Notes under the pieces: model-generated
What the model saw: the letters and a program-made list of their open reading frames with translations, nothing else
What the model was told of the DNA's origin: nothing
Databases searched by the model: none
Part shown: positions 7,926 through 31,093 of the stretch, piece by piece
Position numbering within the stretch: position 1 is the stretch's first letter
Layout: each line of letters opens with the position of its first letter
NCBI GenBank assembly: GCA_030149245.1
Contig: JASBRX010000036.1
Coordinates: 61,768 to 125,767, forward strand
Source of the DNA: Sphingomonas bacterium
GTDB taxonomy: Bacteria; Pseudomonadota; Alphaproteobacteria; Sphingomonadales; Sphingomonadaceae
DNA length: 64,000 bases
Direction of reading: 5' to 3'
Made by a program: the position numbers and the translations under genes

Positions 7926-8114
7926 GGAAAACTGACCCCCGGCGCCGTACAACGAGGGCAGGGGCCTGCCGTCCAGTCCGAACGGCCGGTAGCCATGCGT
8001 CAGCCGGGCGCATGAACGCCTGACGCACGATACCGACGCGGCCCCCGCCGCTTGGTTCGTCGCTCAGACGGAGGACCGTGCCGCGGCCATTCCCTGGACC
8101 AAGGCAAGAGCGAC

Positions 8115-8320: not shown

Positions 8321-8387
8321 GAAACATGGGGTCGCCCCCAGGTTCCGAGTGGGTCCTTACGCCTGCTTATGGGGCTCGGCAAGCTTA

Positions 8388-8407
8388 ATATAAAGAATTC
8401 TTTATAT
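8388..8407. promoter_or_regulatory. 20-base perfect palindrome upstream of the B12 riboswitch
   Basis: The sequence atataaagaattctttatat is a perfect AT-rich palindrome in a very GC-rich setting. It lies between the DUF1993 stop and the riboswitch, where the btuB promoter is expected. On the minus strand it includes -10-like TATATT/TATAAA sequences. It could be a repressor operator, a promoter element, or a weak hairpin ending the DUF1993 transcript. Confidence 0.45.
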
Positions 8408-8421
8408 CCCGTAGACGCGGC

Positions 8422-8979: not shown

Positions 8980-9074
8980 GTTGGTCTCCTAAAGGCTATT
9001 GCGGGTCGGTTTAGGACAGGTTGTTGGCCGGTGCCATCAAATCCGGACTGACTGCATATACAGCCCGAAAAATA

Positions 9075-9089
9075 GAACATATAAAGAAC
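9075..9089. promoter_or_regulatory. LexA operator (SOS box)
   Basis: gaacatataaagaac is GAAC-N7-GAAC, the reverse complement of the alphaproteobacterial LexA consensus GTTC-N7-GTTC, with no mismatch. It ends two bases before the imuA start codon, so LexA binding would block initiation of the imuA-imuB-dnaE2 mutagenesis operon until DNA damage. Confidence 0.9.
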
Positions 9090-9091
9090 AT

Positions 9092-15179: not shown

Positions 15180-15998
15180 ATGGGTATCATTCCAAACTGC
15201 AAGGACCCGACGCTTTCCGCAATAAAGTCAAAGGGCTATAACGTTGTTCGCCTACCGCGGATCGATATGGCGCCGACTCAGTTGCTGGTCGCAAACGGCA
15301 AGACGCTGCAGCGGCTGGGCGACCTTCTCTCAGTTTTCGTGCCCGACCCGGATGGTCCGCCGCCGCCGCCCATCAGCGCCGACCGCCCGGGCCCCAATAT
15401 CCAGGGCACGAAGTCCGCTGATATCGGGCTCGACATCGGGCTCAATATCCTCGGAGGTCTGATCGCTGCGTTGGGTGGATCGCAAATCGGTGTTAATTTC
15501 GCATACAAGCAGGCGCGATCGGTGCAGTTCGAGTTTGGCTCGACGCTGGAAAACAGTACTCAGCTTGCCCAGATTGACGCGTTCCTCGCCTCCGCCAAGA
15601 TCAACAGCTTCGCGCGCGCGGTCGCGCAGATGCTGGAGGCGGATAAGGTGTTCGTCGTCACCAGCACGCTCAAGTCGGCGAACCTGACGGTGGCCGCCAA
15701 GGACAGCCAGAACCACTCGCTGGGGCTCGATATGCCGGTGATCCAGAATGCAATTGGCGGCAACCTGAAGGTCACCTCGGCCTCTTCAGACAATTCGGTG
15801 GTCACGTATCAGGGCTCGGTGCCACTGGTGTTCGGCTTCCAGACGGTGCAGCTGATCTTCGACAACGGCAAGTACCGCACGATGAAGCTGGTCGATGCGG
15901 GATCGCGGGTGGCAGAGGCTGGGGCCATCGGCGCGATCGAAGCGCCGGGCGGACCCGACGCACCGGCAATGCTGGAAACCGAGGCGATGCTGGCTTGA
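15180..15998 (+). CDS. Bacterial gasdermin (bGSDM), pore-forming cell-death protein
   Basis: A 272-residue protein I assign to the bacterial gasdermins. Visible family features are a short N-terminus with a cysteine (Cys7 in IIPNCKDP; N-terminal cysteines are palmitoylated in known bGSDMs), GYNVVRLPR, the SVQFEFGSTLENS strand region, VVTYQGSVPLVFGFQ near residue 207, and a roughly 30-residue C-terminal tail that would be the autoinhibitory segment. Proteolysis releases the tail so the protein can form large inner-membrane pores. Start 15180 has GAGG eight bases upstream; the ATG at 15174 is too close. It heads an operon with two trypsin-like proteases, the usual partners. Assignment is by recall, not by search. 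Confidence 0.82.
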   Translation: MGIIPNCKDPTLSAIKSKGYNVVRLPRIDMAPTQLLVANGKTLQRLGDLLSVFVPDPDGPPPPPISADRPGPNIQGTKSADIGLDIGLNILGGLIAALGGSQIGVNFAYKQARSVQFEFGSTLENSTQLAQIDAFLASAKINSFARAVAQMLEADKVFVVTSTLKSANLTVAAKDSQNHSLGLDMPVIQNAIGGNLKVTSASSDNSVVTYQGSVPLVFGFQTVQLIFDNGKYRTMKLVDAGSRVAEAGAIGAIEAPGGPDAPAMLETEAMLA

Positions 15999-16045: not shown

Positions 16046-17194
16046 ATGGGATTGTTCACCTTTGGCGAACTGAATGAAATCGTGCAGCGCGCGATCCAGG
16101 CAGGGCTCGCCGCACGCCGCGAAAGCCTGTTGTTCGCGTTCCCGCCCGGGTTTGTCGCAGCACTTTCCGGATGGGGGCAAAGCAATCCCGCCGATGCGCT
16201 GAGAGCTGATCTCGGGCAGCTCAACGACCTGGACCAGCCTGTCGGCGGTGAAATCCCGATGGTGATGTGGCTGGGCAACGCCCATTCGACCACTGCGGCG
16301 ACAAGGCCGGCGGACGCCAAATACTTCAACGCGAAGGCGCTCCTCGCCGCGGAGCGCGCCGCCGCGCAGAACGGGCCCGTTACACCGGCGCCGTCAGTCG
16401 CCGCCGCCCTGACGGCGCTGACCATTCCCCAACTCGTCCTGTTCCGCAACGATCTGCTGCCCGACAGCTTCTTCAAGCTGGCGGCCGAGCGCGCCCAATC
16501 GGTCGCGCGGCTGACGGTCTATGCGTATCAGGACGGCAACCAACGCCTCCTCCCTTCCGGCAATCCGGACGGGGTCTACGGCACGGCGTGGCTGATCGGC
16601 GCGAGGCATCTGATCACCAACTGGCATGTCGTCACGGCGCGGCAGGATGGCGAGGCGCCACCCGGTCAGGCCGACATCGATCTGCAGGTCGCCAATATGC
16701 GTATCGAGTTCGATCTTATCGCGCCCGGAGCGATGACCCATATGGCGCTTGCGGCGCGGCTGGCGCACGGCAATGCGGCGCTCGATTATGCCGTCATCGA
16801 ACTGACCCAGCCAGAACCGCGCAGCGTCTTCCCGCTCGCCTCCACACTGCCGACGATCAGTGGCACCGATCCGCTGGCCGCGAACATCATTCAGCATCCC
16901 GCAGGCGAGCCGCGCCAATATGGCATCCGCGACAATCTGGTAGCCGTGGTCCAGGGCGACGACCTTGCCTATTTCACCGATACCAAAGGTGGGTCATCCG
17001 GTTCGCCGGTGTGCGACGATCAGTGGCGCGCGCTGGCGCTCCACAAGGCGACGACCGCGCAGCTGGGGAACTTCACCTTCCAGGGCAAGCAGACGGCGTG
17101 GATCAACATCGGCACGGTCATGCCGGCGATCATGGCCGACCTGAAGACCAAACAGCCTGCGCTGTGGGCCGCCATCGGCGCGAAGGTGGTCTGA
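16046..17194 (+). CDS. Trypsin-like protease with N-terminal death-domain-like adaptor module
   Basis: A 382-residue cytoplasmic protein (no signal peptide). Residues 1 to about 105 form a helical module shared with the next gene (RAIQAGLA, LGQLN, MWLGNA, ATRP). Residues about 155-375 are a chymotrypsin-fold serine protease with His in TNWHVV (about 193), Asp in ALDYAV (about 247) and Ser in GGSSGSP (about 318). The N-terminal module resembles effector-associated/CARD-like adaptors of bacterial conflict systems, which bring partners together by homotypic contact. It is the best candidate for cutting the gasdermin 48 bases upstream. A GGGGGTGTG site precedes the ATG. Confidence 0.82.
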   Translation: MGLFTFGELNEIVQRAIQAGLAARRESLLFAFPPGFVAALSGWGQSNPADALRADLGQLNDLDQPVGGEIPMVMWLGNAHSTTAATRPADAKYFNAKALLAAERAAAQNGPVTPAPSVAAALTALTIPQLVLFRNDLLPDSFFKLAAERAQSVARLTVYAYQDGNQRLLPSGNPDGVYGTAWLIGARHLITNWHVVTARQDGEAPPGQADIDLQVANMRIEFDLIAPGAMTHMALAARLAHGNAALDYAVIELTQPEPRSVFPLASTLPTISGTDPLAANIIQHPAGEPRQYGIRDNLVAVVQGDDLAYFTDTKGGSSGSPVCDDQWRALALHKATTAQLGNFTFQGKQTAWINIGTVMPAIMADLKTKQPALWAAIGAKVV

Positions 17195-17198
17195 GGCG

Positions 17199-18530
17199 AT
17201 GACAAAGCTGCTCGATTTCAACGCGCTTACAACCCTTTGCGAACGGGCGATCGAGGCCGGACTTGCGCCACCTCCGCGTGATGCGCTTTTCCTGGGATTT
17301 GACGCGGCCGTCAAAGCTGCCACCTTTTCAGACGCCGCGCCGGGTGACGCCCTGAAGATCGAAATCGACCGCCTGAACGGCTATATCGATCCGATCGAAG
17401 GCGACATCTATTTCCTGGCAATGTGGCTGATCAACGCAGCGAACAAGGTCAACGCTACCCGGCCAGAGACTGCAGGATTTTTCCGAAACCTGGCGGACAG
17501 GGTCAATGCCATTCCCCGCCCGGCACCGGCAACGGGTGTAACCACCGCAGCGCTGATCCCGGGCGCACGCGCTGAAGCGCTGATCAACCCGGCCGTCGGC
17601 GCGGCCGTGCAGATCCTGCGTGGATCAATGCCGGGAATGAACCGCAGAGCTACCAATCTGATGGTGAGCAAGCGGATGCATGACGCTCTACATCATATCC
17701 AGCTTTATACGCTGCCAATGTGGTCCGCGAGCGTGGCGGCATTGTCGAGCAGTCCCGATTACGCCCGGCAGATGGTGGAGGACAAGCATCGGGAACTGAG
17801 AGATAAGAGCGAGGCTCTACCCGGTGAGTTCGGCTTTCTTTCGACCAATGAAACGCTGCGAGCTGTCGCACAGCAGACGACCGACGCCCTGCTCTCGGCC
17901 GCCGCCGCCGCCGACACGGCGCTTGCCGCGGGCGATGCGGACGGCCTGAAGTCCGTGATCGCAAAGGTTCGTGACATCGTAAAGGCGGCCATGCCGGTTT
18001 ATGCGGGCAAGATGGACAGTTACCAGGAAGGTCTCGATCTTTCTGAGCTGGTCGCAAGCCTTACCATCATCGCTCAAAATTCGTCCGACGACGCGCTGAA
18101 CGCGAACGCAAGCCGCCTCGCCAGTTCGCTGACGACAATCATCCAGGACCTTAGCGTCATCGGGACCCAGCACAGCGAATGGCAGCTGCTGGACATGCGC
18201 CTCGGCGCGCTCGAAAACTGGTTCGGTTTCCTGCATCTGGGGCCGAGCGTCTACGCCTCGTTCAACCTGGACTGGGACGCAGTCCATTCCGCCATTGAGA
18301 CCCTGTCGAGTCAGGGGCCAAGTGAACGCTTCGATCCAGTCAAGCGGCTGCGTGAAGCCTTTCTGCAAATTTGCCCTGTGCCCATCCAAGGCGCTCCTGA
18401 GAAAGAGGCGACGAAGGCGTTCGTCGACTTCGTGATCCAGGCGCGCACGGTGTTCTACGGGGTGGACGTCCGCATGAAGCAAATCTGCAACCAGCTGCGC
18501 GAAATGACCAATCTGCTGGCGCAATTGTAA
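17199..18530 (+). CDS. Adaptor-module protein of the gasdermin operon, no known catalytic domain
   Basis: A 443-residue soluble, largely helical protein. Residues 1 to about 105 match the N-terminal module of the preceding protease (RAIEAGLA, IDRLN, MWLINA, ATRPETAGFF), which I read as a death-domain-like adaptor. The remaining 340 residues are unfamiliar, with an Ala-rich helical middle and no nucleotide-binding or protease motif. It starts four bases after the previous stop behind a GAGG site. A sensor or scaffold that recruits the protease through module-module contact is the simplest reading. Known gasdermin systems often use an ATPase here; none is seen. Confidence 0.7.
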   Translation: MTKLLDFNALTTLCERAIEAGLAPPPRDALFLGFDAAVKAATFSDAAPGDALKIEIDRLNGYIDPIEGDIYFLAMWLINAANKVNATRPETAGFFRNLADRVNAIPRPAPATGVTTAALIPGARAEALINPAVGAAVQILRGSMPGMNRRATNLMVSKRMHDALHHIQLYTLPMWSASVAALSSSPDYARQMVEDKHRELRDKSEALPGEFGFLSTNETLRAVAQQTTDALLSAAAAADTALAAGDADGLKSVIAKVRDIVKAAMPVYAGKMDSYQEGLDLSELVASLTIIAQNSSDDALNANASRLASSLTTIIQDLSVIGTQHSEWQLLDMRLGALENWFGFLHLGPSVYASFNLDWDAVHSAIETLSSQGPSERFDPVKRLREAFLQICPVPIQGAPEKEATKAFVDFVIQARTVFYGVDVRMKQICNQLREMTNLLAQL

Positions 18531-18540: not shown

Positions 18541-20163
18541 ATGTACCGGGTTGCCTTCGAGGAAAATCAGGCTGAGCCATTCGCATCGCCGGTGGAGGGC
18601 GAGCAGGCGCATATCAAGCTGGTCGAGCGGGTACGCGAGATAGAGGCCGCGATCAGTACAGTCGATACACCGCCTGCCGGTGCGATCGACAGTCTCGCTC
18701 AACTGCGGGACGACATTGCCGTCTATGAGGCCCGGCTGGTCGCGTCTGGCGCCCATATGCCCGAAGGCAGCCGGCGCGATCTTTCCCAGAGCGTTTTGGA
18801 TTTTTGGGCGCTCCGCCAATCCGATCTTGCGGCGCTGGCGGCTCGCTATTCTCCGAACGAGCAGACAATGGTCCGGCAGGAGTTGCCCGCGGCCAAACTG
18901 CTTGCGCCCTATGATGAGGCAACTGCCGTCGCTGCCGCGGCCAAGGCCGAGGAATGCTATGTCGCGCTGCCCGACGATTCGGCGCGCGACGCGGCGCGCG
19001 GCGCCTTCCTCTCTCTCCTGCAGCGCAACGCTCCGCTCTCGCCCCCGGAAATCGCGGCGCTGGAGCCGTTCGCCGAGGCGGGTGTGCTCAGTCGATTGCC
19101 CACCGATGTGCTGGAGCCGGGCTATGATCTGGGGCACGAAGCACTTCCGCAGGCTTGGCAGAGGCTTGCCGAGTGGCAGCTCCAGGCGGCGAAGGTCCTT
19201 AGCGATCTGGATCGGGTACGAAGCAGCGCGCAGGCGTGGACGGAGACCAAGAGCTTCTCCGAATTGCCCCAGGGGCCGGCGGTCGATGTGGTCGCCAAGT
19301 TGGCCGAGCATGACGATTCGTTGAAGGAATATGCCGCTGCTGCCTACCGCCGCCGCACGCGCGCGCGCGCAATTGCGTGGGCAGCCGGGGTGATCTTCGC
19401 TGTTGCGCTTATTGGTGTCGGCACCTTAACTGTCCTCCTCACCTCGCGCCGGCCATCGCCCCCGGGCACGTCCATAGCGGCTGAATTCCAGGCCACGCAG
19501 AACGAGGCTTCGGAAGAGGTCATCGTCTCCGATCAGCCGCAGTCCGGCAAATCCGATACGGCGCAAGGTTCCACGGGCTGGATCTGGCTCGGTTCCACTG
19601 CGCTTCCGCAGGTGACGCTTGAAAACGGCACGCTGGCGGATCCGGCCGGCTTCAAGGGCGGGATGAAAGTGCGGACCCGCGCCAACCTCAAGATTCGTCA
19701 ACGCGGGCCAGAAGACAATGGCGAGAATATCGCCGGAGACCGGATCGGCCAGGTGTCGAGCGACGTGATCGTAGAATTGAAAAAGACGACGTCGGTGACG
19801 GTTGATGGCGTGGAGCAATATTGGGCCGAGGTACGGGTGATCCCGGTCGTGTATGTCCAGCGCTTCAGGGCAGCGGACCTGCGCATGGCCGAACTCCGGA
19901 AGGCGTTGGCGGACCGCGGCTTTCCGGCCCTGTACGAGCAGAAGCTCGACAGGATCGTGCAGGTCGACCCCGGACTGCCCTTCGACGTTCGCTACTATTA
20001 CGAGCAGGATAAGCAGGCGGCGAGCGAGGTGGCCGGCATCTTGCTACGCTGGCTTGGCAACGAACGCGTGCCGGTGGACAGAACCCTGTTCCCCCTGGTC
20101 GACACGCCAATCGCCGAACGGGTGAAAACCGGGACGATTGAAGTTTGGCTTTACCAGCGTTGA
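18541..20163 (+). CDS. Single-pass membrane protein with SH3b-like domain, gasdermin operon
   Basis: A 540-residue protein of unknown function. Residues 1-270 are cytoplasmic and helical, followed by a basic stretch (RRRTRAR) and one membrane helix (about 277-300). A Ser/Thr/Gln-rich linker leads to an SH3b-like segment (KVRTRANLKIRQRG to WAEVRVI, about 377-440), then a roughly 100-residue C-terminal domain reminiscent of LytR-C/SPOR-type folds. The topology suggests an N-in protein with envelope-facing domains, possibly sensing cell-wall damage. It starts ten bases after the previous stop behind AAGGA. Domain names beyond the SH3b-like call are uncertain. Confidence 0.65.
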   Translation: MYRVAFEENQAEPFASPVEGEQAHIKLVERVREIEAAISTVDTPPAGAIDSLAQLRDDIAVYEARLVASGAHMPEGSRRDLSQSVLDFWALRQSDLAALAARYSPNEQTMVRQELPAAKLLAPYDEATAVAAAAKAEECYVALPDDSARDAARGAFLSLLQRNAPLSPPEIAALEPFAEAGVLSRLPTDVLEPGYDLGHEALPQAWQRLAEWQLQAAKVLSDLDRVRSSAQAWTETKSFSELPQGPAVDVVAKLAEHDDSLKEYAAAAYRRRTRARAIAWAAGVIFAVALIGVGTLTVLLTSRRPSPPGTSIAAEFQATQNEASEEVIVSDQPQSGKSDTAQGSTGWIWLGSTALPQVTLENGTLADPAGFKGGMKVRTRANLKIRQRGPEDNGENIAGDRIGQVSSDVIVELKKTTSVTVDGVEQYWAEVRVIPVVYVQRFRAADLRMAELRKALADRGFPALYEQKLDRIVQVDPGLPFDVRYYYEQDKQAASEVAGILLRWLGNERVPVDRTLFPLVDTPIAERVKTGTIEVWLYQR

Positions 20164-20191: not shown

Positions 20192-22960
20192 ATGGCCAAT
20201 GACAAGGGGCTGCCCGCCGCCCGCTTTGCCCGCACACTGCTAGCGAAGGCCGCGCCGGGCGGAGGGCACCGGACTGAGGCCGCGGGCCTGGCATCGGCGG
20301 GGGAACTGGCCGAGGCTGTGGGTCCTTCGGTGGAAGAGTTGGTCCCGAAGTCGGTACCCGAAGGCTTTTCACGCGATGAGGTGGAGGCGGTTGCGCGCAA
20401 GCTGCTCGTCACCGACGAGCTTAGCCCGCGCGAGACCTTCGTCACCGAGGCGATCATCATTCCCGACTTGCGCCCTGCGGTGTTCGTGACCGGCAACGAC
20501 TATGCGATCGATCACCCGGCATGGACCGACTATGTCGCGGGCACGCCCGCGCACGCCAATTTCTGCCGGGCGATTCCGTCGGTCGGGCGGATCGAACTGA
20601 TCGGGAATCCGAGCCTGCCGTTCGGAGGAACCGGCTTCGTCGTCGCGCGGGATCTGGTGATGACCAACCGCCACGTCGCATCGCTGTTCGCGGCCGGCAT
20701 TGGCGTGCGCAACCTGCGTTTTCAGGACCAGCTGGGTGCGGCGGTCGATTTCGTGCGCGAACATGGCCAATCGTCCGGCGGCACGCCGTTCGCGGTACGC
20801 GATATCGTGATGATCCACCCCTATTGGGATCTGGCGCTGCTGCGCGTTGAAGGCCTTGAAGATCGCGAGCCGTTGACGTTCGCGACCTATGAGCCGGATC
20901 CCGCCAAGCCGCGACGTATCGCCGTGATCGGCTATCCCGCGTTCGACCCGCGCAACGATGCCAGCGTACAGAATCAAGTGTTTCACGGCGTCTACAACGT
21001 CAAGCGGCTGCAGCCGGGCCTGTATAACGGGCGCCGCAAGATCGACAGCTATGGCAAGCTGGTCGATGCCGGGACCCATGACAGCTCCACACTGGCTGGC
21101 AATTCCGGTTCGGTAGTGGTCGAGGCCGACGGTGGCCAAGTCGTCGGGCTGCACTTTGCGGGGATCTACAAGGACAGCAACTTCGCGGTGCCGGCAGTCG
21201 ATCTGGCGCGCGATCCGCGGATGATCGACGCCGGCTTGAAGTTCGCGCCGGGAGCGGAAGCGAGCAGCGGGCCGTGGGACATCTTTTGGGCCGCAACATC
21301 GTCGGTCGGGAATGAATTCGGCACGGCGCAAAGAGGGCAGGCGGTGATGGCGGAACAAGGCAAGACCATAAGGCTGACGGTGCCGGTGGAAATCGAGCTT
21401 TCCATCGGCGTGACCGGTGCGAGCATTGCGGGCGCGACGGCGGCGGTGGGCGGTGGTGCGCTGACCGAGAAGATGGTCGAACCCTTCCACGATCCGATCG
21501 AGCTGCCGCGTGAGGGCTATGATCCCGGCTTCCTGGGCATCGCCGTGCCCATGCCCGTGCCGCGCCGCCCGAACGAATGCGCGCAGCTGGCCGATGGGTC
21601 GAACGAGCTGAAATATTATAACTTCTCGATCGTGATGAACGCTGGCCGGCGCTTGGCACTCTTCGCCGCGTCGAACGTGGATGCGCGGGCAGTGGCGAAG
21701 GAGCCGGAGCCCGGCCACAAATATACGCGTGCCGGCCTGAGCGGGCTGGACGAAGGCGATGTCGAGAAGTGGTTCACCGACCCGCGCATCCGCGGCATCG
21801 AGCAGCTGCCCGACCGTTTCTTCACCAAAGATCGCAAGGCGTTCGACAAGGGCCATATCGTCCGACGCGAGGATGTGGCGTGGGGCGGGAGCTTCTCCGA
21901 AGTGCGCCGTGCCAATGGTGATACCTATTTCGTCACCAATTGCTCGCCGCAGACCGCCGGGTTCAACCGTTCGAACCGGAAGGACAATTGGGGCGCGCTC
22001 GAGGATCTGGTGCTAAAGCAGGCAAAGGCCGAGAAATACTGCCTGTTCGCCGGGCCTGTGCTGCACGCGGCTGATCCCGAATTCACCGGGGTCGATGATT
22101 TCGGCGGCGTCAAGGTCCGTATTCCGCAGAAATATTGGAAGGTCGTTGTCGCGCGCGCCGGGAACGCGCTCAAGAGCTTCGCCTTCGTGCTCAATCAGGA
22201 CGTCTCGCAGACGCCGATGGAGTTCGCGGTGCCGGCGACCTGGCAGCGGCATATGGTCAGGCTATCGGACTTGCAGGCGGAGCTGGACAGCCTCGATTTC
22301 GCGCCGGAACTGATAGCGGCCGACCAGTATGACGCCGTGCGCGATGGCAGCGAAACCGCCGCGCTGGACTCGGTAATGGAGGCAATCATCGCGATGGCCC
22401 CGGCCGAAGTCGTGACGGAAGGACCTCCGCGCCAGCACGGCCGCTTCGTTGGCTTGCCGCTGCAAGTGGCATTCAACACCGATCAGGACGAGCGCCGCTC
22501 GGCCCAGCTGCTCTCGCCGCTAAGCTATTTCCAGCCCGACGAGTCCGAATGGCCGGTACCGGCGGATGCCAGACTTGATGGCGCCTCGATCCCCAGGCCG
22601 TTCTGGTCCGTGATTGGTGGGCCATTCGAGGGACTCTACCTCGAGGCTTCGGTGGTTCACGATTACTATTGCGACCATCATGTGCGCCCATGGCGCGACG
22701 TCCACCGGATGTTCTACGATGCGATGCTGTGCCGCGGGGTCGGCGGATTCTGGGCACGGATCATGTATTATGCGGTCTACCGCTTCGGGCCACGATGGGA
22801 GATGGTCGAGGGCCTAGGGTCGGTCGCCATCCCGGCCGAGGCCCTCACGGACGACAAGGCGCCGTCCATTCTGGCCGACGCGAAAATTCTGGTGCACGAT
22901 CTGCCGCGTGAAATGATCGAGGCACTTGCCGAAAAGAGCGCTGCGAAAGCGGGACGGTAG
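20192..22960 (+). CDS. Trypsin-like protease / EndoG-type nuclease / DUF1353 fusion protein
   Basis: A 922-residue multidomain protein, last in the gasdermin operon. Residues about 135-360 form a trypsin-like protease with His in TNRHVA (about 160), Asp in WDLALL (about 212) and Ser in AGNSGS (about 305). Residues about 480-720 match the DNA/RNA non-specific endonuclease (EndoG/NUC) fold: DKGH (about 552) corresponds to the catalytic DRGH, and metal-binding Asn lies around TNCSPQTAGFN and NWGALED. Residues about 770-880 match DUF1353 (DGASIP near 795, ASVVHDYYCD). No signal peptide is seen. Start 20192 has a GGAGG site; the track start is shadow. It may both process targets and degrade nucleic acid. 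Confidence 0.82.
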   Translation: MANDKGLPAARFARTLLAKAAPGGGHRTEAAGLASAGELAEAVGPSVEELVPKSVPEGFSRDEVEAVARKLLVTDELSPRETFVTEAIIIPDLRPAVFVTGNDYAIDHPAWTDYVAGTPAHANFCRAIPSVGRIELIGNPSLPFGGTGFVVARDLVMTNRHVASLFAAGIGVRNLRFQDQLGAAVDFVREHGQSSGGTPFAVRDIVMIHPYWDLALLRVEGLEDREPLTFATYEPDPAKPRRIAVIGYPAFDPRNDASVQNQVFHGVYNVKRLQPGLYNGRRKIDSYGKLVDAGTHDSSTLAGNSGSVVVEADGGQVVGLHFAGIYKDSNFAVPAVDLARDPRMIDAGLKFAPGAEASSGPWDIFWAATSSVGNEFGTAQRGQAVMAEQGKTIRLTVPVEIELSIGVTGASIAGATAAVGGGALTEKMVEPFHDPIELPREGYDPGFLGIAVPMPVPRRPNECAQLADGSNELKYYNFSIVMNAGRRLALFAASNVDARAVAKEPEPGHKYTRAGLSGLDEGDVEKWFTDPRIRGIEQLPDRFFTKDRKAFDKGHIVRREDVAWGGSFSEVRRANGDTYFVTNCSPQTAGFNRSNRKDNWGALEDLVLKQAKAEKYCLFAGPVLHAADPEFTGVDDFGGVKVRIPQKYWKVVVARAGNALKSFAFVLNQDVSQTPMEFAVPATWQRHMVRLSDLQAELDSLDFAPELIAADQYDAVRDGSETAALDSVMEAIIAMAPAEVVTEGPPRQHGRFVGLPLQVAFNTDQDERRSAQLLSPLSYFQPDESEWPVPADARLDGASIPRPFWSVIGGPFEGLYLEASVVHDYYCDHHVRPWRDVHRMFYDAMLCRGVGGFWARIMYYAVYRFGPRWEMVEGLGSVAIPAEALTDDKAPSILADAKILVHDLPREMIEALAEKSAAKAGR

Positions 22961-23018: not shown

Positions 23019-23393
23019 ATGAGTAAATCCGCGAGGACCGCCGTCGGGGTCCGTTACCTCCTCGCCGTCGTCGACGACTTTGCATGCAAGAGTCTGGCGC
23101 TGGTGGTGGACACGTCACTGTTGGGCGCTGGTGTTGCGTACCAACCCGATGCGATCATCACGGTGCGTGGCCGGCCGCTGGTGATCGTCAGCGACAGCGG
23201 GATCGATCTGACGATCCTGGCGATCCTGCGCTGGGCGCAGGACCGGCAGATCGAGCGGCACTACATCGCGCCGGGCAAGCCACGGCAGAACGGCTACGTC
23301 GGGAGCGTCAATGATAGCTTGCACGTCAATCGCTGCGGGGCCGTTCCTTACCTCGTGAAAGAGCATCGAGTACGCCCCGACAAACGAGCATGA
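23019..23393 (+). pseudogene. IS3-family transposase (OrfB) remnant
   Basis: A 124-residue fragment of an rve-type integrase core: LLAVVDDFACKSLALV, IVSDSGIDLT, RWAQDRQIERHYIAPGKP. The catalytic Asp pair survives, but the segment normally read as FVESFN is YVGSVN, so the catalytic Glu is gone; SDNG has become SDSG. Both ends are missing and no terminal inverted repeats were found. It marks past transposition just downstream of the gasdermin operon. The rest of 22961-23466 shows no gene. Confidence 0.82.
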
Positions 23394-23466: not shown

Positions 23467-24267
23467 TCATTTATCTTCCGCGTACAATTTGTTCAGGAGA
23501 TGATCGATCGCATATTGCCCGACTTCATTGAGCGTCCGCTCTTCGAATTCCTGGATCAGCTGTAGCGCCAGCACGAGTACCGAGGCGAGCACGAGTGCGA
23601 TGAAGGTGGTATTGAAAGCGAGGCTCAGGTCGCCGATCGTCACTTCGAGCATCTTCTGGAACTGTTCCGGATCCTGCGGATTCATGCCCTTCATTCCCGC
23701 CAGGCCGCGCGAGAGGCCCCAGACCGTGCCGATGAAGCCGACCGTCGGCAGCAGCCAGGTGAGGTAGCGCGAGAGATTGTAGCCGAGGTCGAGCTCGTGC
23801 TGCTGGAGTTCGAGCGTCGAATCCATGATCTCTGCGGCGAGCCCGATCGAACGCGTGCCCTGGAACTGCCAGATCACGCGGAGCAGCAGGCGCTGGAGAT
23901 AATGGTCCCGGCCGGTCGCCCGGATGCTGCGCGCGATCCCGGGCAGAGCGCGTGGATCGATCATCGCGTCGTCGCGCTCGGGGAGCAGGCTGCGGCCAAG
24001 CTGTTTCCGCTCCGCGCGCGCGTGCAGATAGCGCCCGGCAAGCTCGCCGCAACCGATGCCGAACACCAGCCATTCGAGGCAGCTGATCGTCACCGGGAAC
24101 GGCGGAACCGCCCCGTCTCGGTAGTCGAACAGGAGGATCGCGAGCCAGCTGCCCTTCGGCAACAGCGCGCCTGCAGCGACGATCGCGATGCCGAGCGCCA
24201 GGCCGCCGAGGCGAAAGAGAGTCTGCGTGGGCGGCTTTCGCTTTGCGGCTTCGATGTTGCTGCTCAT
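23467..24267 (-). CDS. MotA/TolQ/ExbB-like proton channel protein
   Basis: A 266-residue membrane protein with about four hydrophobic segments. The C-terminal half carries the MotA/TolQ/ExbB signature LPTVGFIGTVWGLSRGL (about residue 168) followed by a helix pair. Such proteins form five-subunit proton or sodium channels that drive a partner with one N-terminal helix. The vWA protein encoded 28 bases upstream has exactly such a helix, so the two are probably one motor. Zorya ZorA is a related defence channel, but the long cytoplasmic tail of ZorA is absent here. It is the last gene of the 12-gene operon. Confidence 0.78.
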   Translation of the reverse strand: MSSNIEAAKRKPPTQTLFRLGGLALGIAIVAAGALLPKGSWLAILLFDYRDGAVPPFPVTISCLEWLVFGIGCGELAGRYLHARAERKQLGRSLLPERDDAMIDPRALPGIARSIRATGRDHYLQRLLLRVIWQFQGTRSIGLAAEIMDSTLELQQHELDLGYNLSRYLTWLLPTVGFIGTVWGLSRGLAGMKGMNPQDPEQFQKMLEVTIGDLSLAFNTTFIALVLASVLVLALQLIQEFEERTLNEVGQYAIDHLLNKLYAEDK

Positions 24268-24295
24268 CCTTCCCCCTTTTGACGTGCGGTGCGAG

Positions 24296-25111
24296 TCATT
24301 CAGCCATCGCGATCAGCAGCGAAAGCGCGAACGAGGAGCCGGGTGCGGGCACCTTGCCGTTCCCCCGCTGCGCGAGTTCGGAGTAGAAGCTCATGGTGGT
24401 GGCGGAGTCGCCCTCGACGAACGCCGAGAGGCGCGCGCCGCTGCCCCCCCACGCGGTCGCGAACGCGAAGGCCTGGGCGATCTCGTCGGCGCTGCGCGGG
24501 GGGTTGTCGCCGATCACGACGATGAAGCGGTTGTCCGGGTTCGCCTTCCAGTCGAGCCCGCGCGCCGCGATCAGACCGCCCAGGACCTGCTCCTCCGCTT
24601 CCTCGTTGGTGCACGGGACGCCGGCCTCGAGCGAGTTGGCGAACGACTGGAGCTGCTGGAGGCCATTCGCGTCGATCAGCGTGAGCGGCTGGACGCGGAC
24701 CGCCGCGCTGCCCATGCAATAGTCCTTATATTCGACGATCGCGATGCGCGCCTGGTCCGTCAGCTTGTTCAGGATCATTGAAAGGCTGCGTATCTCCTCC
24801 TTGAGGCGGCCGATGGGCTGCTGCATCGATGCGGTCGTGTCGATCACGATGGCGATGTCGGTCGCCCGCTGCTGCAGGCCGCGCTTGAGCTCTTCGATCG
24901 CGGCGTCGCGCTCGGTTTCGGCCTTGCTGAGCTGTTCCTTGAGCGTCTGGTTCTCGCGCTTGATCGCGGCGACCTCCTCCGCCTTGGGGCCTAGGTTCGG
25001 GGCGAACAGCGAGAAGAGGATCGCGAGGAACATGAACGCGCCCAGCGCGGAGCAGAACATGTCGAGCGCCGACATGCTGACGATATTGATTTCGCGCGAT
25101 CGGATCTTCAA
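24296..25111 (-). CDS. MotB-like membrane-anchored vWA-domain protein
   Basis: A 271-residue protein with an N-terminal membrane helix preceded by SMSALDMFCSALG (about residues 12-38), like the plug/ion-binding helix of MotB-type stators, then a coiled coil (about 45-80) and a von Willebrand A domain (about 83-270) with the MIDAS motif DTTAS near residue 91. In MotB/ExbD/ZorB the periplasmic part binds peptidoglycan or TonB; here a vWA domain takes that place. It is paired with the ExbB-like gene and overlaps the YiiX-like gene by four bases. I do not recognise a named family with this architecture. Confidence 0.78.
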   Translation of the reverse strand: MKIRSREINIVSMSALDMFCSALGAFMFLAILFSLFAPNLGPKAEEVAAIKRENQTLKEQLSKAETERDAAIEELKRGLQQRATDIAIVIDTTASMQQPIGRLKEEIRSLSMILNKLTDQARIAIVEYKDYCMGSAAVRVQPLTLIDANGLQQLQSFANSLEAGVPCTNEEAEEQVLGGLIAARGLDWKANPDNRFIVVIGDNPPRSADEIAQAFAFATAWGGSGARLSAFVEGDSATTMSFYSELAQRGNGKVPAPGSSFALSLLIAMAE

Positions 25112-25695
25112 CGTACGCGATCCATCGCCACCGCCCGAGTCAGCTCGTATGGCAAGACGGCCTTGCGGGGATGGGACGCCGCGTCCGGCAGCAGGTCGAC
25201 GCCCGCCGCGCGCAAGACTCGCCAGGCAAGCTCCGTGCAGTAAATCCGCGAAGGCTCGCCGAGGTCGAAGGCGAAATCGTAAAGTAGTTTCCGGCCGCGC
25301 AGCGCCTCAACCGAGCGGCGCACGGCCCGGTCGAAACGCGCCCGCGCGTCTGCGCCGTGCCATCGCACGCGCATGACGCGATAGTCGCCGTTGCGGGCGA
25401 AGCGGATGAAGTCTTCGACTGGTTCGGTCTGCACGGCGCCGTGCGGCCCGCCGGGAAGCGCGTGCACCACCTGCCACGCGCCGCCGCTCCGGTAGATCAC
25501 CCCCACATGCGAATAGCCATTGCCGACGATGCTCAGCATGCGGGTCTCGATGCCGAACCCGGTCCGAAAGATTAGGTCCCCGTTCCGCAGCGCATTGGCA
25601 GGGAGCGCGCGCGCCGCAGGCGCGGAGTGGACGGCCGCGGTGGTGGTGAGGCCTGCGACGAGCGCGATGGCCATCAGCGGCACGAGCGGCCTCAT
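25108..25695 (-). CDS. YiiX/NlpC-P60-like (permuted papain fold) hydrolase, exported
   Basis: A 195-residue protein with a signal peptide (MRPLVPLMAIALVAGLTTTAAVHSA). It shows the YiiX/YebB permuted-papain pattern: LRNGDLIFRTG, the catalytic-type His in YSHVGVIY (about 63), and the Cys in IYCTELAWRV (about 153). Such enzymes are amidases or thioesterases acting on cell-wall or lipid substrates. Start 25695 overlaps the upstream gene as ATGA; the track's 495-residue version is a spurious extension. In this operon it may act on the envelope; the substrate is unknown. Confidence 0.75.
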   Translation of the reverse strand: MRPLVPLMAIALVAGLTTTAAVHSAPAARALPANALRNGDLIFRTGFGIETRMLSIVGNGYSHVGVIYRSGGAWQVVHALPGGPHGAVQTEPVEDFIRFARNGDYRVMRVRWHGADARARFDRAVRRSVEALRGRKLLYDFAFDLGEPSRIYCTELAWRVLRAAGVDLLPDAASHPRKAVLPYELTRAVAMDRVR

Positions 25696-26288
25696 GGGTG
25701 CATCCATCCCGGCATGCGCCGCAATATCGCCTGGCGCTTGGGGGCATGCCACAGCGCCCGGAACGCCTTCGCGGTCTCGATGATCGAGAACACATATATC
25801 AGCCATGCGGCGAGCACGAAGAAAGCGCCGACCACCCAGCCGAAGCCGCCCAGCGCATCGAGCCATCTGGAGAACTTCTCCATGTTGCTCAGCGTCTTGA
25901 AGCCGCCCATGAAGTGCGGGAGGATGAGATAGGCAAAGAAGAAGAACCAGCCGACTAGGGCAGGAAAGCCGGCGAGGAACAGCAGCCCGTGCCGACGCGT
26001 CCATCGCCGCGGCCTTTGCTCCATCAGGCCACAATAGGCGAGGAAGAACGGCATTCCGACAAGGAAGAAGAAGCCGGCGATCAATAGGCCCGTCGCCAGT
26101 ATCTCGAACATCATGCCGATCGCGCCGCCCCCCTCCCGGGGGTATGCTAGCATGCTGCCCTGGACGAACAGCGCGAGCGCGATGCCGGCATAGGACAGGA
26201 CGGTCAGCAGCCCCGCCAGCACGATCGCGACGATCCCGGGGATCCGGCCGGCAGGCGGCGTCGAAGGCGAATGCGTGGATGCCATCAT
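25692..26288 (-). CDS. Hypothetical four-helix integral membrane protein
   Basis: A 198-residue protein with four clear hydrophobic segments (about residues 18-45, 60-85, 100-128 and 145-170) and a basic C-terminus (WHAPKRQAILRRMPG). I recognise no family. It lies between the kinase and the YiiX-like protein and overlaps the latter by four bases, so it is very probably part of the same membrane complex. The first two codons are both ATG; the second is equally possible as start. Confidence 0.65.
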   Translation of the reverse strand: MMASTHSPSTPPAGRIPGIVAIVLAGLLTVLSYAGIALALFVQGSMLAYPREGGGAIGMMFEILATGLLIAGFFFLVGMPFFLAYCGLMEQRPRRWTRRHGLLFLAGFPALVGWFFFFAYLILPHFMGGFKTLSNMEKFSRWLDALGGFGWVVGAFFVLAAWLIYVFSIIETAKAFRALWHAPKRQAILRRMPGWMHP

Positions 26289-26303
26289 GCGATTCCGTTT
26301 CGT

Positions 26304-27956
26304 CTACATTGCGTTGTCGGCGGTCATCTCCGATGCGTCTAGCGCTTCCGCGCTCTCGCAGTTTATCGAAAGATAATAGACGCCGTTCTCGTAATAGGGT
26401 TCTAGAACTCGCCAGCTGACCTTGCCAAGTTCGGGGGCGGGGTACATATTTTCGCTGCCGTCCCCAAACCATCCATGGGTGGAGCCAAAGATTTTCCCAT
26501 AATAGTATAGGGGGGAGTTCGAGAAGAGAACCCGGCGAAATCTGCCGGAATCTAGGAAGGTCAGTGTGTTCTTTGTTGGTCCATTGAAGGTCCAATATTC
26601 GATCATTAGTTCGTTGTTTTCGTCGTACCAGCGGACCCAGACCTTGTGGGTCATCGAACAGCGGCTGTCGATGCCGAGCTGGCTCGCGATCACCGGGGGA
26701 GTTGCGACGTTACCCATCACATCCGCCGTCACGGAAGCATTATCAATAGCGGTGACGTTATCAGCGGCAGTTTCCAGCGCATCGGCCGTATTCTCGGTGC
26801 CGGCATCGTCCGTCGAAATCTGCTGAGCCGTTGGCCTGGCGAGGATGAGCAACACCATAATCACGACGAAGATCGCGATCGCGATGCTGAGACCGATGCC
26901 GGATCGATTCTTCGCGGGCGGTGGGGGCGGTGGGGGCGGCGGGGGCGGCGGGGGCGGTGGGGGGGGAGGCGGAGGCGGAGGCGAGGAAGGACGCGTCCTG
27001 CCCCGGGCACCGCCTGCCTCTTCCCCGATCGCTGCAAGCCAATCGCGCGCCGATTGGAACCGGGCAGATGGCTCGACCTCCAGCGCCCGATCGATGGCTT
27101 CGAGAAACGGCGCGGGACCTGCGACGCGTCCCGCCAGCGGCTCGTAGTTGGCTTTGCCGGTGAACCGAAGCAGGCCGTCGGGCGGCGCTCGCCCGGTTAG
27201 GGCATAATGGGCCACGCCGCCCAGGGCATAGATGTCGGTGGGCGGCCCCTGTTTCGGAAAATTGGGGCTCACATGGGTGTATTGCTCGTAGGGAGCATAG
27301 CCCTGAGTGAGGATCGCAGTGAGCGTGTTAGTGCGCTCGCCGATGACATGGCGCGCTGCGCCGAAGTCGATCAGCACGGGGCTGAGCGTTCCGTCGCGCA
27401 GCAGGATGTTACCGGGCTTGATGTCTCGGTGGATCAGCTGCGGTTCCGCCTCATGGAGCGCGACTAGGGCGTTGAGCAGGGGAATCAGGATCGGAGCCAA
27501 CGTCTCGGTGGTCAGCGGAGCGAAATGGCGCGTGTCGGTCGGCGAGCGCGGCGGCTCGCCGACGAACGCGCGCAGCGTCTTTCCCTCGATCAGTTCCATC
27601 ACCATATAGGCGGTGCCGTTCTGCTTGAAATAGTCGAGCACCTCGACGACGTTGGGGTGCGCGCTTCCGTGAGCCTGACGGTAATGGTCATGGAAGTCGG
27701 CGACGCGATCGGCCTCGTCGTTGAACTCCTCTAGGTTGAGGAGAAATATTCCGGCGGAATCGTCGTCGGAGGGTTGGACCGTGTCTTCGCCACGCGCGCG
27801 CTCGACTAGGTTGCGTGGGAACAGTTCCTTGATCGCGCGGACGCGGTCCGGAAACCTCACATGATGGGTACGATAGGTGATGCCGAACTGGCCCTGGCCA
27901 AGATGCCCGTCGATCTCATAGGCGCCGATCCGGTCCTTCGCCTTGAGCCGCGTCAT
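26304..27956 (-). CDS. Transmembrane Ser/Thr protein kinase (PknB-like)
   Basis: A 550-residue protein with a Hanks-type kinase domain (about residues 10-275): glycine loop LGQGQFGITY, VAIK-like lysine in RAIKELF, catalytic HRDIKPGN (about 175) and DFGAARH (about 197). It continues into a run of about 23 prolines, one membrane helix (about 357-378) and a roughly 140-residue exported C-terminal domain of unknown fold. It would phosphorylate the FHA proteins of this operon and be opposed by the PP2C phosphatase encoded just upstream (ATGA overlap). The external domain may sense an envelope signal. Confidence 0.9.
   Translation of the reverse strand: MTRLKAKDRIGAYEIDGHLGQGQFGITYRTHHVRFPDRVRAIKELFPRNLVERARGEDTVQPSDDDSAGIFLLNLEEFNDEADRVADFHDHYRQAHGSAHPNVVEVLDYFKQNGTAYMVMELIEGKTLRAFVGEPPRSPTDTRHFAPLTTETLAPILIPLLNALVALHEAEPQLIHRDIKPGNILLRDGTLSPVLIDFGAARHVIGERTNTLTAILTQGYAPYEQYTHVSPNFPKQGPPTDIYALGGVAHYALTGRAPPDGLLRFTGKANYEPLAGRVAGPAPFLEAIDRALEVEPSARFQSARDWLAAIGEEAGGARGRTRPSSPPPPPPPPPPPPPPPPPPPPPPAKNRSGIGLSIAIAIFVVIMVLLILARPTAQQISTDDAGTENTADALETAADNVTAIDNASVTADVMGNVATPPVIASQLGIDSRCSMTHKVWVRWYDENNELMIEYWTFNGPTKNTLTFLDSGRFRRVLFSNSPLYYYGKIFGSTHGWFGDGSENMYPAPELGKVSWRVLEPYYENGVYYLSINCESAEALDASEMTADNAM
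26916..26984. repeat. Proline-codon tract in the kinase gene
   Basis: About 69 bases of near-perfect (ggcgggg)-type sequence, including a run of eight G on the plus strand, encode roughly 23 consecutive prolines between kinase domain and membrane helix. Such tracts can slip during replication. Slippage by multiples of three would change linker length; other changes would shift the frame and cut off the membrane and external parts. Confidence 0.85.
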
Positions 27957-29170
27957 TCGTTCTCTCCGGTTTGGCCTTCGGATTGATTCTCAGCCGGAGG
28001 GGGTGTTGTCTCCGCGGTGGGAGGCTGTGTCGAATTGCCGGTCGGATCGCCAGTTATGGGTTCCGTTCCGTCTGCTTGGACGTTGCCCGGAGCTGACACG
28101 TTACGGACCGACACACCCCCCTCCGCTTGACCCGCCTCCTCCTCCTCCTCTTGCTTCTCCGGCGGCGCGGGCACGGTTTGGTTGGCCACCGGGGGCGGCG
28201 GGGCGACTGTAGCGACGCCGTTGTCGGGCGCTGCGGTGGCATTCTCAGTGTCGTTGGGAAACAGGGCCGGGAACCACATGTCGCGAAGCTTGTCGTAGAA
28301 GAGCCAACCCGCCACCGCTGCGGCAACGAGGGCGAGCAGCATCACTCCGCCAAGAAGCCGCTTCCCGCGTCCGCCGCTATTGCGGGCGGCGGCTGCGTCG
28401 GTTCGACCCGGCTGCCATAGGCAAATCGTCGTGTTGTCCTGCCGGGGCCGATTTGCCCTGACTATGGCGTCGAGCATGGCGCGGCCCGCGGCTTCCGTGC
28501 TGGCGGCTGATCGCAGGATGCTCGTCATCTCGCCTTCGTCGAGTGTCTCAATGCCGTCGGTGGCCGCAATCAGCCAGTCGTCCGGCGCCAGCGCGAGCGG
28601 CGCGGAGGAAGCGTCGACGAGCTCCGGGACACCTTCGCCCAGCGCCGAGCGCAGCTGGTTCCGATGCGGATGGTTCTGCGCCTCCTCGGCGGTCATTTCG
28701 CCGCGCTCCGCCATCTCGGCGAACAGCGCGCGCATCGAGTGATCCTCGGACAGCCGAGTCAGCCGATTGTCCGCGAAGCGCCACAGGGGCGAATCGCCGA
28801 CGCTGATCCAGTGGAGCCCGTCGCTGCCTTTGGCGACCGCGATCAGGGTCGTTCCCATACCCTCCAGCGCCGGATCGGCGACGATCGCGTCGGAGATCGC
28901 GTGGCTCGCTTCTTCCAGCGCGGTGCGCAGCCGGTCGCGCGTGGTGCCCGTGGTCTGGCGCTCATAGCTTGCGACGAAGGTCCGCACGGCAATGCCGCTG
29001 GCGACATCGCCGCCAGCGTGCCCGCCCATCCCGTCGGCGACGACGACGAGGTTGGGCAGGGAGGTGCCCTTGCGCAGGCTGACTCCGTAGGAATCCTCCT
29101 GCCGTTTCCGAGCGCCGAGAATCTGACCGATGAAATATGGCGGTGGGGGAGGCCCGGTCCTTCGGGCCAT
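27953..29170 (-). CDS. PP2C-type Ser/Thr protein phosphatase with membrane anchor
   Basis: A 405-residue protein. Residues about 15-250 are a PPM/PP2C phosphatase with metal-binding motifs RQEDSYG, ADGMGGHAGG (about 47), GDSPLWR and RQDNTT. A membrane helix (about 275-295) is followed by an Asn/Pro/Glu-rich, low-complexity tail. It would reverse phosphorylation by the kinase encoded just downstream. It overlaps the kinase gene by four bases and the upstream FHA gene as TGATG. Kinase/PP2C/FHA sets also occur in type VI secretion and TerY-P modules, but no secretion genes are seen here. Confidence 0.9.
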   Translation of the reverse strand: MARRTGPPPPPYFIGQILGARKRQEDSYGVSLRKGTSLPNLVVVADGMGGHAGGDVASGIAVRTFVASYERQTTGTTRDRLRTALEEASHAISDAIVADPALEGMGTTLIAVAKGSDGLHWISVGDSPLWRFADNRLTRLSEDHSMRALFAEMAERGEMTAEEAQNHPHRNQLRSALGEGVPELVDASSAPLALAPDDWLIAATDGIETLDEGEMTSILRSAASTEAAGRAMLDAIVRANRPRQDNTTICLWQPGRTDAAAARNSGGRGKRLLGGVMLLALVAAAVAGWLFYDKLRDMWFPALFPNDTENATAAPDNGVATVAPPPPVANQTVPAPPEKQEEEEEAGQAEGGVSVRNVSAPGNVQADGTEPITGDPTGNSTQPPTAETTPPPAENQSEGQTGENE

Positions 29171-29736
29171 CAGAGGTCGGTCCAGTCGAACGCCGTGTCG
29201 CAGAACGGCATGAAGCGCAAGCTCGTCCCGCCGACGATCAGCGTGTCGCCAGCGGAGAGCTCGTGCGGCTGGCGTACCTTCTGGCCATTGTGCTCCGCGC
29301 TGTCGCCAGTGCCGGGGATTAGATAGAATTTGCGGTCTTTAGCATCATATTCCAGCCGCACATGATCCTTGTTGGACACACGCTTGTCGCCGAAGTTGAG
29401 CCGGAGATTGGCTTCGGGCCCGCGAGCGATGACGTTCATTCCCGGACGGATCGTGAGCACGCTGCCAATGCCGGGCCCCTCGACAACCACCAGCCAGCCG
29501 ACCGGTTGCGGATGTTTGCGTGTCGGGTCGCCGCGGATGGTCGCATCGGGATCCTCGCCACTTGCCGAGTCGGGATCCTCGTCCGATTCCCATTTCCGCC
29601 GGCCATGGGGATGCGCCACCGTCGGCTTCCAGGTCGGGGCCTCGGCATCGGGCTTGTCATTGGGGCCAAAGAGATGCTCGGTTTCGCCGACCGGATCCGC
29701 ATCGTCTCCGCCGCCCTCGTTCAATATCCGTCCCAT
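29170..29736 (-). CDS. FHA-domain protein (cytoplasmic)
   Basis: A 188-residue protein with an acidic, probably disordered N-terminal 75 residues and a C-terminal FHA domain (GMNVIARGPEANLRL, then VSNKDHVRLEYD and EHNGQKV). FHA domains bind phosphothreonine, so it is a likely readout of the adjacent kinase. The usual SxxH-type core is present as SNKDH, with one extra residue before His. Start 29736 follows a GGGGGAATC site. It overlaps the phosphatase gene by one base. Confidence 0.82.
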   Translation of the reverse strand: MGRILNEGGGDDADPVGETEHLFGPNDKPDAEAPTWKPTVAHPHGRRKWESDEDPDSASGEDPDATIRGDPTRKHPQPVGWLVVVEGPGIGSVLTIRPGMNVIARGPEANLRLNFGDKRVSNKDHVRLEYDAKDRKFYLIPGTGDSAEHNGQKVRQPHELSAGDTLIVGGTSLRFMPFCDTAFDWTDL

Positions 29737-29791
29737 GATTCCCCCTCATGTTCAGTTGCAAACTCATCTGTCTGGTCGTGATTCGTCAATA

Positions 29792-31093
29792 TCAACTGTC
29801 GGATTGTTCGAATGACACGCTAAATTCTTTCTGAGCGAGGCGGATGCGATTGCCTCTTCTTAGCTCGACGGGCTCGAATGGCTTGAGCGATACACCTTCG
29901 ACCGCACTGCCGTTGCTCGACCCGAGATCCTCCGCAACGACCCCGCCGTCGCTGGCCCGCAGCCGCAAGTGTCGCCGTGAGAGCGTAGGATCGTCGATAC
30001 AATGGTCGACGAAACGGCGCGCGCGGCCTAGCACCACGCCGGCGCGGCGCCCGAGATCGGCGGTCGGCACCCTCACGCTCGTCCCGCCGCCGACTGGAGT
30101 CAGCACGAGCGTCCGCAGCGATCCCGGGAGCGGCGAGGTGGGGGTGGGGCCGACCGAACTGCCGCCGGCCGAGGGCTTGTCAGAACGCCCGCGCGCGCGG
30201 AAAGCGGCGACGGCGGCGACCGCGCCCAGCAACGCGACCGCGAGCCCGCCCGCATAGGGAAGCATCTCGCCGAGGTTTGCGGAAGGCGCGGGCGCGGGCG
30301 CGGGCGCGGGGGAAGGGGTGGCAGTCGGCGTTCCGGACGGCGTCAGTGTCGGCGTGGGCGTGGGCGTGGGCGTGGGCGTGGGCGATGGCGTCGGACCGCA
30401 AGCGGGGCCGGTTTCGAGCGTCACGCCCAGCGAAGCCTGCATCAGGCGCGCGCGGAGCACCTGGCTCGCCGAGGCGATGTAGATCGCCTCGGCCTTGGTG
30501 GGGAGGGCGGTGTTGACGCCCACCACCTGCCCGCAGGTGTTGAGCAGCGGGCCGCCGCTATTGCCTTGCGAGATCGCGGCGCTGTGGATGATCGTATCGA
30601 CCTTGCCGCCGCCCTGGCCGAGCTGCATCGGATATTCCGACGAGACGATCCCCGTCGTCAGCGCCATCACCACGGTGTCGTTTCCCTGCTGCCATTGCAG
30701 CGAGACGCCCGGGAAACCTGCAGCCCAGACCGGATCGCCCTGTTCGGGTGCGGCCGACGCCAGCGCGATCGCGGGGTTGGGCAGCCCGGGGACGTCGAGC
30801 AGGGCGAGATCCGCCTCGGTGTCGCTCCAAAGCAGCCGGGCAGGATAGGCGGTGTTTGGCGGGGCGACCACGAGATAGCGGTCGTAGCCGGCCTCCAGGA
30901 CGACATGCGCGTTGGTCACGACCTTGCCCGGCGCCACAACGAAGCCCGATCCGACCACGCTCTGGTTGGTGTTGCTGGCGCTGAGGGCGTTGATCAGGAC
31001 GACGCCGCGCAGCTGCTCGCGCTTCGGGTTAGCGTGTGCCGCGGTTCCCCACCATGCAAGGGCGACGAGCGCCGTGATCAGCCCGCCGCGCAT
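29792..31093 (-). CDS. Periplasmic trypsin-like protease / cytoplasmic FHA fusion
   Basis: A 433-residue protein with a signal peptide (about 1-21), then a trypsin-like domain with His in TNAHVV (about 63), Asp in EADLALL (about 95) and Ser in GNSGGPL (about 178). A Pro/Thr/Ala linker encoded by 6-base tandem repeats (about 233-275), a membrane helix (about 283-305) and a C-terminal FHA domain (LSRRHLRLR, LGSSNGS) follow. Topology puts the protease outside the inner membrane and the FHA domain inside, so phosphorylation in the cytoplasm could control proteolysis in the periplasm. It forms part of the minus-strand operon. Confidence 0.85.
   Translation of the reverse strand: MRGGLITALVALAWWGTAAHANPKREQLRGVVLINALSASNTNQSVVGSGFVVAPGKVVTNAHVVLEAGYDRYLVVAPPNTAYPARLLWSDTEADLALLDVPGLPNPAIALASAAPEQGDPVWAAGFPGVSLQWQQGNDTVVMALTTGIVSSEYPMQLGQGGGKVDTIIHSAAISQGNSGGPLLNTCGQVVGVNTALPTKAEAIYIASASQVLRARLMQASLGVTLETGPACGPTPSPTPTPTPTPTPTLTPSGTPTATPSPAPAPAPAPSANLGEMLPYAGGLAVALLGAVAAVAAFRARGRSDKPSAGGSSVGPTPTSPLPGSLRTLVLTPVGGGTSVRVPTADLGRRAGVVLGRARRFVDHCIDDPTLSRRHLRLRASDGGVVAEDLGSSNGSAVEGVSLKPFEPVELRRGNRIRLAQKEFSVSFEQSDS
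30285..30390. repeat. Six-base tandem repeats in the protease-FHA linker
   Basis: Two short arrays occur inside the gene: gcgggc-type units near 30285-30310 and gggcgt units near 30355-30390. They encode the alternating Pro-Ala and Pro-Thr linker between the protease and the membrane helix. Because units are a multiple of three, copy-number change would alter linker length without breaking the frame. Confidence 0.75.

Follow-up and report, generated by a model that had tools for sequence, protein, structure and literature searches.

What a single protein that joins a protease, a nuclease and a DUF1353 domain does at the end of a gasdermin operon is the question raised by the window, a stretch of 64,000 nucleotides from a Sphingomonas bacterium (contig JASBRX010000036.1). 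A first-pass annotation had described a 922-residue frame with a trypsin triad, the DKGH and Asn motifs of a nuclease and the DGASIP motif of DUF1353, and had suggested that the protease may cut itself to free the nuclease or that the nuclease may be a second killing arm besides the pore.

The fusion protein and its operon

The fusion gene (20192..22960, + strand) is a single open frame without internal stop that runs from the ATG at 20192 to the stop codon at 22960, encodes 922 amino acids and has a good ribosome-binding site (GAGGAGGATCACG-ATG). Three Pfam domains, all exceeding the curated cut-offs, follow one another: Trypsin_2 (residues 146-320, 20627..21151, E 2e-17), Endonuclease_NS (residues 469-690, 21596..22261, E 4e-29) and DUF1353 (residues 772-862, 22505..22777, E 9e-20). 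When compared with solved structures using Foldseek, the trypsin-like protease matched 6tya (E 3e-9), and the best matches of the nuclease were EndoG/EXOG enzymes (E 4e-10). In the AlphaFold model both domains are folded, and the linker between them (residues 371-426, 21302..21469) is disordered, with pLDDT values below 50. The protease triad H161/D213/S305 is unchanged in 25 of 25 sequences, the window counted in, and DGASIP occupies residues 796-801. Frame, Pfam domains and residues thus all agree with the annotation. The nuclease residues, on whose conservation it had made its reading depend, are kept among the nuclease-bearing homologues (H555 and N583 in 17/17, D552 in 16/17). A short strand motif of the TIPL.ITISLG type (residues 396-406) occurs in most fusion linkers, whichever enzyme forms the C-terminus.

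The operon consists of five + strand genes, spaced by 47, 4, 10 and 28 bases, and ends with the fusion gene. The first gene encodes a bacterial gasdermin of 272 aa (15180..15998). Its frame is open from a TTG at 15138, and the start at ATG 15180 is backed by a relative at the locus L072 that begins with MGLIPNCKDP. Both PADLOC (bGSDM, E 1.5e-76) and NCBIfam (prok_gasdermin, E 8e-63) recognise the protein, and the solved gasdermins 7n51/8sl0 match it with an E-value of 1e-41. It has a cysteine close to the N-terminus (Cys7) and a short C-terminal tail with the sequence GAIE254/APGG (here and below, the slash follows the Glu). With these matches and the tight gaps leading to the fusion gene, the gasdermin operon of the first-pass annotation is confirmed, and the domain and operon evidence for the observation as a whole is far beyond chance.

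The second gene (16046..17194) codes for a candidate initiator protease of 382 aa, EAD5-trypsin, in which EAD5 (residues 7-143, E 3.5e-12) precedes Trypsin_2 (residues 179-332, E 3.9e-14); its triad is H194/D247/S318. It is followed by a 443-aa protein (17199..18530), a candidate adaptor or core partner, whose EAD5-like N-terminus shares 38% identity over 95 aa (E 5e-15) with the EAD5 of the neighbouring EAD5-trypsin. Its counterpart at L009 has EAD1 at the equivalent place. The fourth protein (540 aa, 18541..20163) has one transmembrane segment near residue 282 and only the C-terminal part of nSTAND1 (profile positions 251-375 of 379, E 2.7e-6), and it is a candidate membrane sensor or scaffold. 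It has no P-loop, and indeed a Walker A or P-loop NTPase motif is absent from all five operon genes. At L073, a full nSTAND1 NTPase occupies the slot that is held by the STAND remnant in the window. In the sister operon L009, the nSTAND1-remnant protein (7789-9774) has an Endonuclease_NS domain fused to it.

Directly downstream of the operon lies a transposase (rve) remnant (23019..23393, + strand). Scans of the window for promoters, terminators and repeats gave nothing of note. The adjoining region on the - strand (23467-31093) carries genes for ExbB/ZorA-like and vWA/ZorB-like proteins, a C92 amidase, a Ser/Thr kinase, a PP2C phosphatase, an FHA protein and a trypsin-FHA protein; this cluster may form a signalling or conflict system of its own.

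Homologues with exchanged effectors

The homologue set comprises 23 loci from a search with one genome per species, and L073 was added by whole-genome searches. The homologues share the N-terminal region and the protease, the latter with about 47-57% identity for most and 70% for L023, and vary in the C-terminal enzyme. Most have Endonuclease_NS alone. It is accompanied by a subtilase at L001 and L003 and by an S41 peptidase at L014, and elsewhere the C-terminus is a subtilase alone (L016), endonuclease I (L017, L021), lipase 3 (L015), an alpha/beta hydrolase (L020) or an AAA protein (L022). In a protease tree the C-terminal types do not cluster; the window pairs with L023 with support, and the backbone is weak. 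At L018 (9939-11492) the fusion gene is split in two, with 410 aa in the protease frame and 77 aa in the nuclease fragment. Two bacteria have Amidase_2 genes near the trypsin-nuclease fusion (L005:11465-12139 and L012:11116-11961, 69% identical to each other), which possibly encode a cell-wall effector.

A partner, by which we mean a STAND protein or a second trypsin (of EAD, CARD, TPR-S or other type), is present at 18 of 24 loci. Four of them (L001, L002, L003, L016) are CARD-NLR-like four-gene operons and five (L005, L009, L010, L023, L073) are EAD operons, with EAD1 versions at L009, L010 and, weakly, L005. L020 combines a gasdermin, a caspase, STAND genes and EAD5. A second trypsin or STAND gene is present at L004, L006, L007, L008, L012 (where the trypsin is about 8 kb away), L013, L017 and L018. 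No recognised partner was seen at L011, L014, L015, L019 (a very short contig), L021 and L022. Plasmid records of Paracoccus and Pseudomonas contain more distant, solo trypsin-nuclease genes, whose neighbours are metabolic genes. Although such genes exist, the partners at 18 of 24 loci show that the fusion is not found mostly outside defence loci, which the first-pass annotation had named as evidence against itself.

Association with gasdermins

The annotation had also proposed a search for the domain order next to gasdermins in other genomes. The full protease-nuclease-DUF1353 order does recur, in only one other genome found (Porphyrobacter, L023), but there the gasdermin is missing. L023 keeps the four downstream genes in order, the match starting with EAD5-trypsin and extending over the whole fusion, with about 52-84% protein identity; its block has no gasdermin, and the genes upstream are unrelated. 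The gasdermin is thus an add-on to a four-gene block.

A different arrangement is seen at L072 (6537-10111, - strand), a compact three-gene operon for a protein with DUF1353 and a weakly matched metallopeptidase domain (HESLH), a gasdermin and a trypsin. Its gasdermin is 61% identical to that of the window, and the protease beside it is related to that of the window fusion and lacks fused effectors. Since DUF1353 is part of the fusion in the window and of a separate protein at L072, DUF1353 and gasdermin are found together in two different gene arrangements. In a Solibacteraceae genome (L020:5458-17930), a gasdermin, a caspase, a trypsin-hydrolase fusion, two STAND NTPase genes, an EAD5-trypsin and a TPR protein stand in a row, and this locus may be related to the window system, in a larger form that includes a caspase. 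Gasdermins are rare in this group: within the order, 2 of 401 genomes have one, and a single-protein query of the class sample found 1 in 376 genomes, the window's own.

The fusion might also be an independent second system that is co-transcribed with the gasdermin and has no link to it, its nuclease and DUF1353 hitting phage DNA and membranes. The absence of a gasdermin from the otherwise matching L023 block would suit this reading, as would the distant solo genes outside defence loci. However, gasdermin, trypsin and DUF1353 co-occur again at L072, and gasdermin, a fusion-type protease and EAD5-trypsin do so at L020. We regard such independence as improbable.

Predicted Glu-directed cleavage

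For the part of the fusion protease that contains T300, S305 and H321, glutamyl endopeptidases are the best PDB profile matches, and Foldseek agrees. In V8-type enzymes, specificity for Glu is conferred by Thr190 and His213. We take T300/H321 of the fusion and T313/H333, the specificity positions of EAD5-trypsin, to be their equivalents; T300 and H321 are present in 25 of 25 homologues. The predicted release site ahead of the nuclease is Glu426 (21467-21469, + strand), where 14 of 16 homologues have Glu in linkers that are otherwise variable and disordered. A second candidate, Glu743 (VTE/GPPR; 22418..22420, + strand), lies in the nuclease-DUF1353 linker, and L023 has ALE/GPPR there. Just ahead of the protease domain, Glu86 (20447..20449, + strand) is invariant in 22 of 22 sequences, within the motif [L/I/T]-E-[A/S]-I-[I/V]...R-P. 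In the AlphaFold model it falls in a predicted helix (residues 79-93) and not in a loop. We therefore did not accept it as a certain zymogen site; it is possibly an activation site or a structural residue.

Related motifs of the form [GA][LI]E[GAST] occur in the gasdermin tails of the window and of L072, flank the L072 DUF1353 on either side and are also present in amidases and small ORFs of sister operons. Thirteen were seen where shuffled sequences led us to expect 1.3, and none of 5000 shuffles gave more than 6, in a test designed after the motif had been seen. Six DUF1353 proteins from outside these operons have one cut motif in total. The LE/IE motif is absent from the L020 gasdermin and the L069 amidase, and the window fusion carries TE, not LE, at its predicted sites. 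Class-level genomes, plasmids and viral contigs offered no usable further gasdermins or amidases for a test of the motif on unseen data. We rejected a T/L switch before the Glu as co-evolution between sites, as it is inconsistent across homologues.

Taken together, the glutamyl-endopeptidase-like protease, the linker Glu in 14 of 16 homologues and the LE/IE motifs that gasdermin tails and sister effectors contain lead us to predict Glu-directed release of the effectors. The self-cleavage suggested by the first-pass annotation fits a conserved Glu in a disordered linker beside such a protease, as a prediction from sequence.

The DUF1353 module

The only biochemical study of DUF1353 that we found (PMC11525133) reports phospholipase A2 activity of TtaP, with the catalytic residues His70, Asp71 and Asp85, and mentions DUF1353 fusions to an endonuclease and to several protease domains. 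The window domain shares the family's His-Asp motif (H823-D824) but has His838 where TtaP has the catalytic Asp85, a position assigned by spacing and alignment, and it differs from TtaP in being fused to a protease and a nuclease. His838 is almost invariant in the window's subfamily; a Vibrio phage member has Asp. The domain is modelled with a pLDDT of 82 and has no significant PDB match in Foldseek. With the dyad Asp replaced, and with Foldseek and PDB profile searches returning no phospholipase, we do not class it as a confirmed phospholipase A2. A lipase activity would be predicted from the family resemblance and is uncertain, because His838 replaces Asp85 and there is no PDB match.

The same two facts are what one would expect if this part of the fusion were a non-enzymatic module that targets the nuclease to membranes or binds it, which would be compatible with the other models. 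On the other hand, H823, D824 and His838 hardly vary among many members, viral ones included, which is how an active site would behave, and lipase families occupy the C-terminal slot of other fusions; a non-enzymatic role seems to us rather unlikely. DUF1353, domain and DGASIP motif confirmed, had served the first-pass annotation as a mere label, yet it is probably the third effector of the fusion. DUF1353 genes also occur on rhizobial plasmids near caspase-family or subtilase genes (L093, L094, L095), one of them fused to an M12 metallopeptidase.

Relation to known systems

For alphaproteobacteria, NucA-trypsin conflict systems, extended by S8 and EAD1, were predicted in 2020, and a proteolytic cascade was proposed for them (Kaur et al. 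2020, system 3, PMC7159879). The window, likewise alphaproteobacterial, shares with them a trypsin-like peptidase and an Endonuclease_NS (NucA) domain, often fused in these systems and fused here, and also the further trypsin paralogue, which in a subset of them is fused to EAD1 and here to EAD5. The optional, non-defining STAND NTPase with a Death-like domain is not among the window's five genes and is present at L001. The window has no P-loop STAND NTPase and adds gasdermin, DUF1353 and the proposed Glu-directed release sites.

LypC of the CARD-NLR-like LypABC system of Caulobacter, a protein with a function in lysis, is alike in architecture, with an N-terminal trypsin-like protease, a flexible linker and a C-terminal endonuclease (PMC13236601). 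It has neither DUF1353 nor gasdermin, and its partners are a CARD-trypsin-ATPase and an NLR, not EAD5 proteins. We rejected membership of the window in the CARD-NLR group, since it has no CARD/bDLD2 and no P-loop; these are present next to L001, with related genes at L002, L003 and L016. As in bacterial gasdermin systems, among them the CARD-NLR type of Lysobacter (PMC13236601), the gasdermin gene stands beside trypsin-like proteases, but here NLR and CARD are lacking and an effector-carrying protease shares the operon. In gated nuclease-protease pairs, which act in antiviral immunity, the protease frees the nuclease in trans (Tuck et al., PMC12799240). Their nuclease has an MBL fold and is cut after Ile in Hachiman, whereas that of the window is EndoG-like, fused in cis and predicted to be released after Glu. 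An MBL-type gated pair was therefore rejected on account of the fold and the fusion in cis.

The fusion operon is then an EAD5-containing, NTPase-free variant of the predicted NucA-trypsin kind and kin of LypC by architecture. In the literature searched we found no description of gasdermin combined with protease-nuclease-DUF1353, which does not prove that no report exists. The remark of the first-pass annotation that no named defence protein is known with this order needs correction for the first two domains, as trypsin-NucA fusions had been predicted (PMC7159879) and LypC studied (PMC13236601).

The LypC experiments bear on which part of the fusion matters. Lysis requires protease activity, as the serine mutant fails, whereas it is normal in nuclease H/N mutants, and the nuclease is missing from one LypC homologue (PMC13236601). 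The nuclease may thus not be the main killing arm, and the second-arm proposal of the first-pass annotation, although supported by conserved catalytic residues, is weakened. One could go further and regard the fusion mainly as a gasdermin-activating protease with a secondary or structural nuclease and DUF1353, all the more as the L072 gasdermin neighbours a related protease free of fused effectors. Yet the nuclease residues show strict conservation across 17 homologues, and the L023 fusion, in a block without any gasdermin, must act in another way. We hold this role to be doubtful as the main one.

A proposed protease cascade

We give an even chance to an abortive-infection type operon that works as a two-step protease cascade, in which an initiator switches on an executioner, and the latter releases the effectors it carries and perhaps the gasdermin. 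Infection or envelope damage would be sensed by the membrane protein and the adaptor, and EAD5-EAD5 contacts would cluster EAD5-trypsin, the initiator. Clustered EAD5-trypsin would activate the fusion protease, the executioner. This predicted Glu-cutter would cut itself in the linkers, at Glu426 and near Glu743, to free the EndoG-like nuclease and DUF1353. One of the two proteases would shorten the tail of the gasdermin, with Glu254 as a possible site. The cell would then die of the pores, the loss of its DNA and perhaps an attack on its phospholipids before phage are released.

The cascade is suggested by the operon and its domains, the travelling four-gene block, the conserved catalytic residues, Glu426, the motifs and the module swaps. 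It has precedents in the LypC protease (PMC13236601), in protease-released pro-nucleases (PMC12799240) and in the cascade proposed for NucA-trypsin systems (PMC7159879). It is weakened by the lysis that LypC nuclease mutants still caused, by the helical position of Glu86, the post-hoc motif test and the TE sites of the fusion, and by the replaced Asp of DUF1353 and a full domain order in two genomes only.

A broader version, which we put forward tentatively, sees a Glu-directed hub of death proteases, in which an EAD-clustered initiator acts on an effector-carrying executioner and [L/I/T]E tags plug in unrelated effectors in cis or in trans. With such tags on gasdermin, nuclease, lipase, amidase and subtilase, one trigger could release pore, nuclease and lipid attack without an NLR-type ATPase.

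If these proposals are true, one protease cascade would release a pore, a nuclease resembling the EndoG of animal apoptosis and possibly a lipase, in parallel to initiator and executioner caspases. The locus would be an example of gasdermin action apparently independent of an NLR ATPase, and a code of cutting after Glu in flexible tails would predict cleavage sites of gasdermins and other effectors in many operons.
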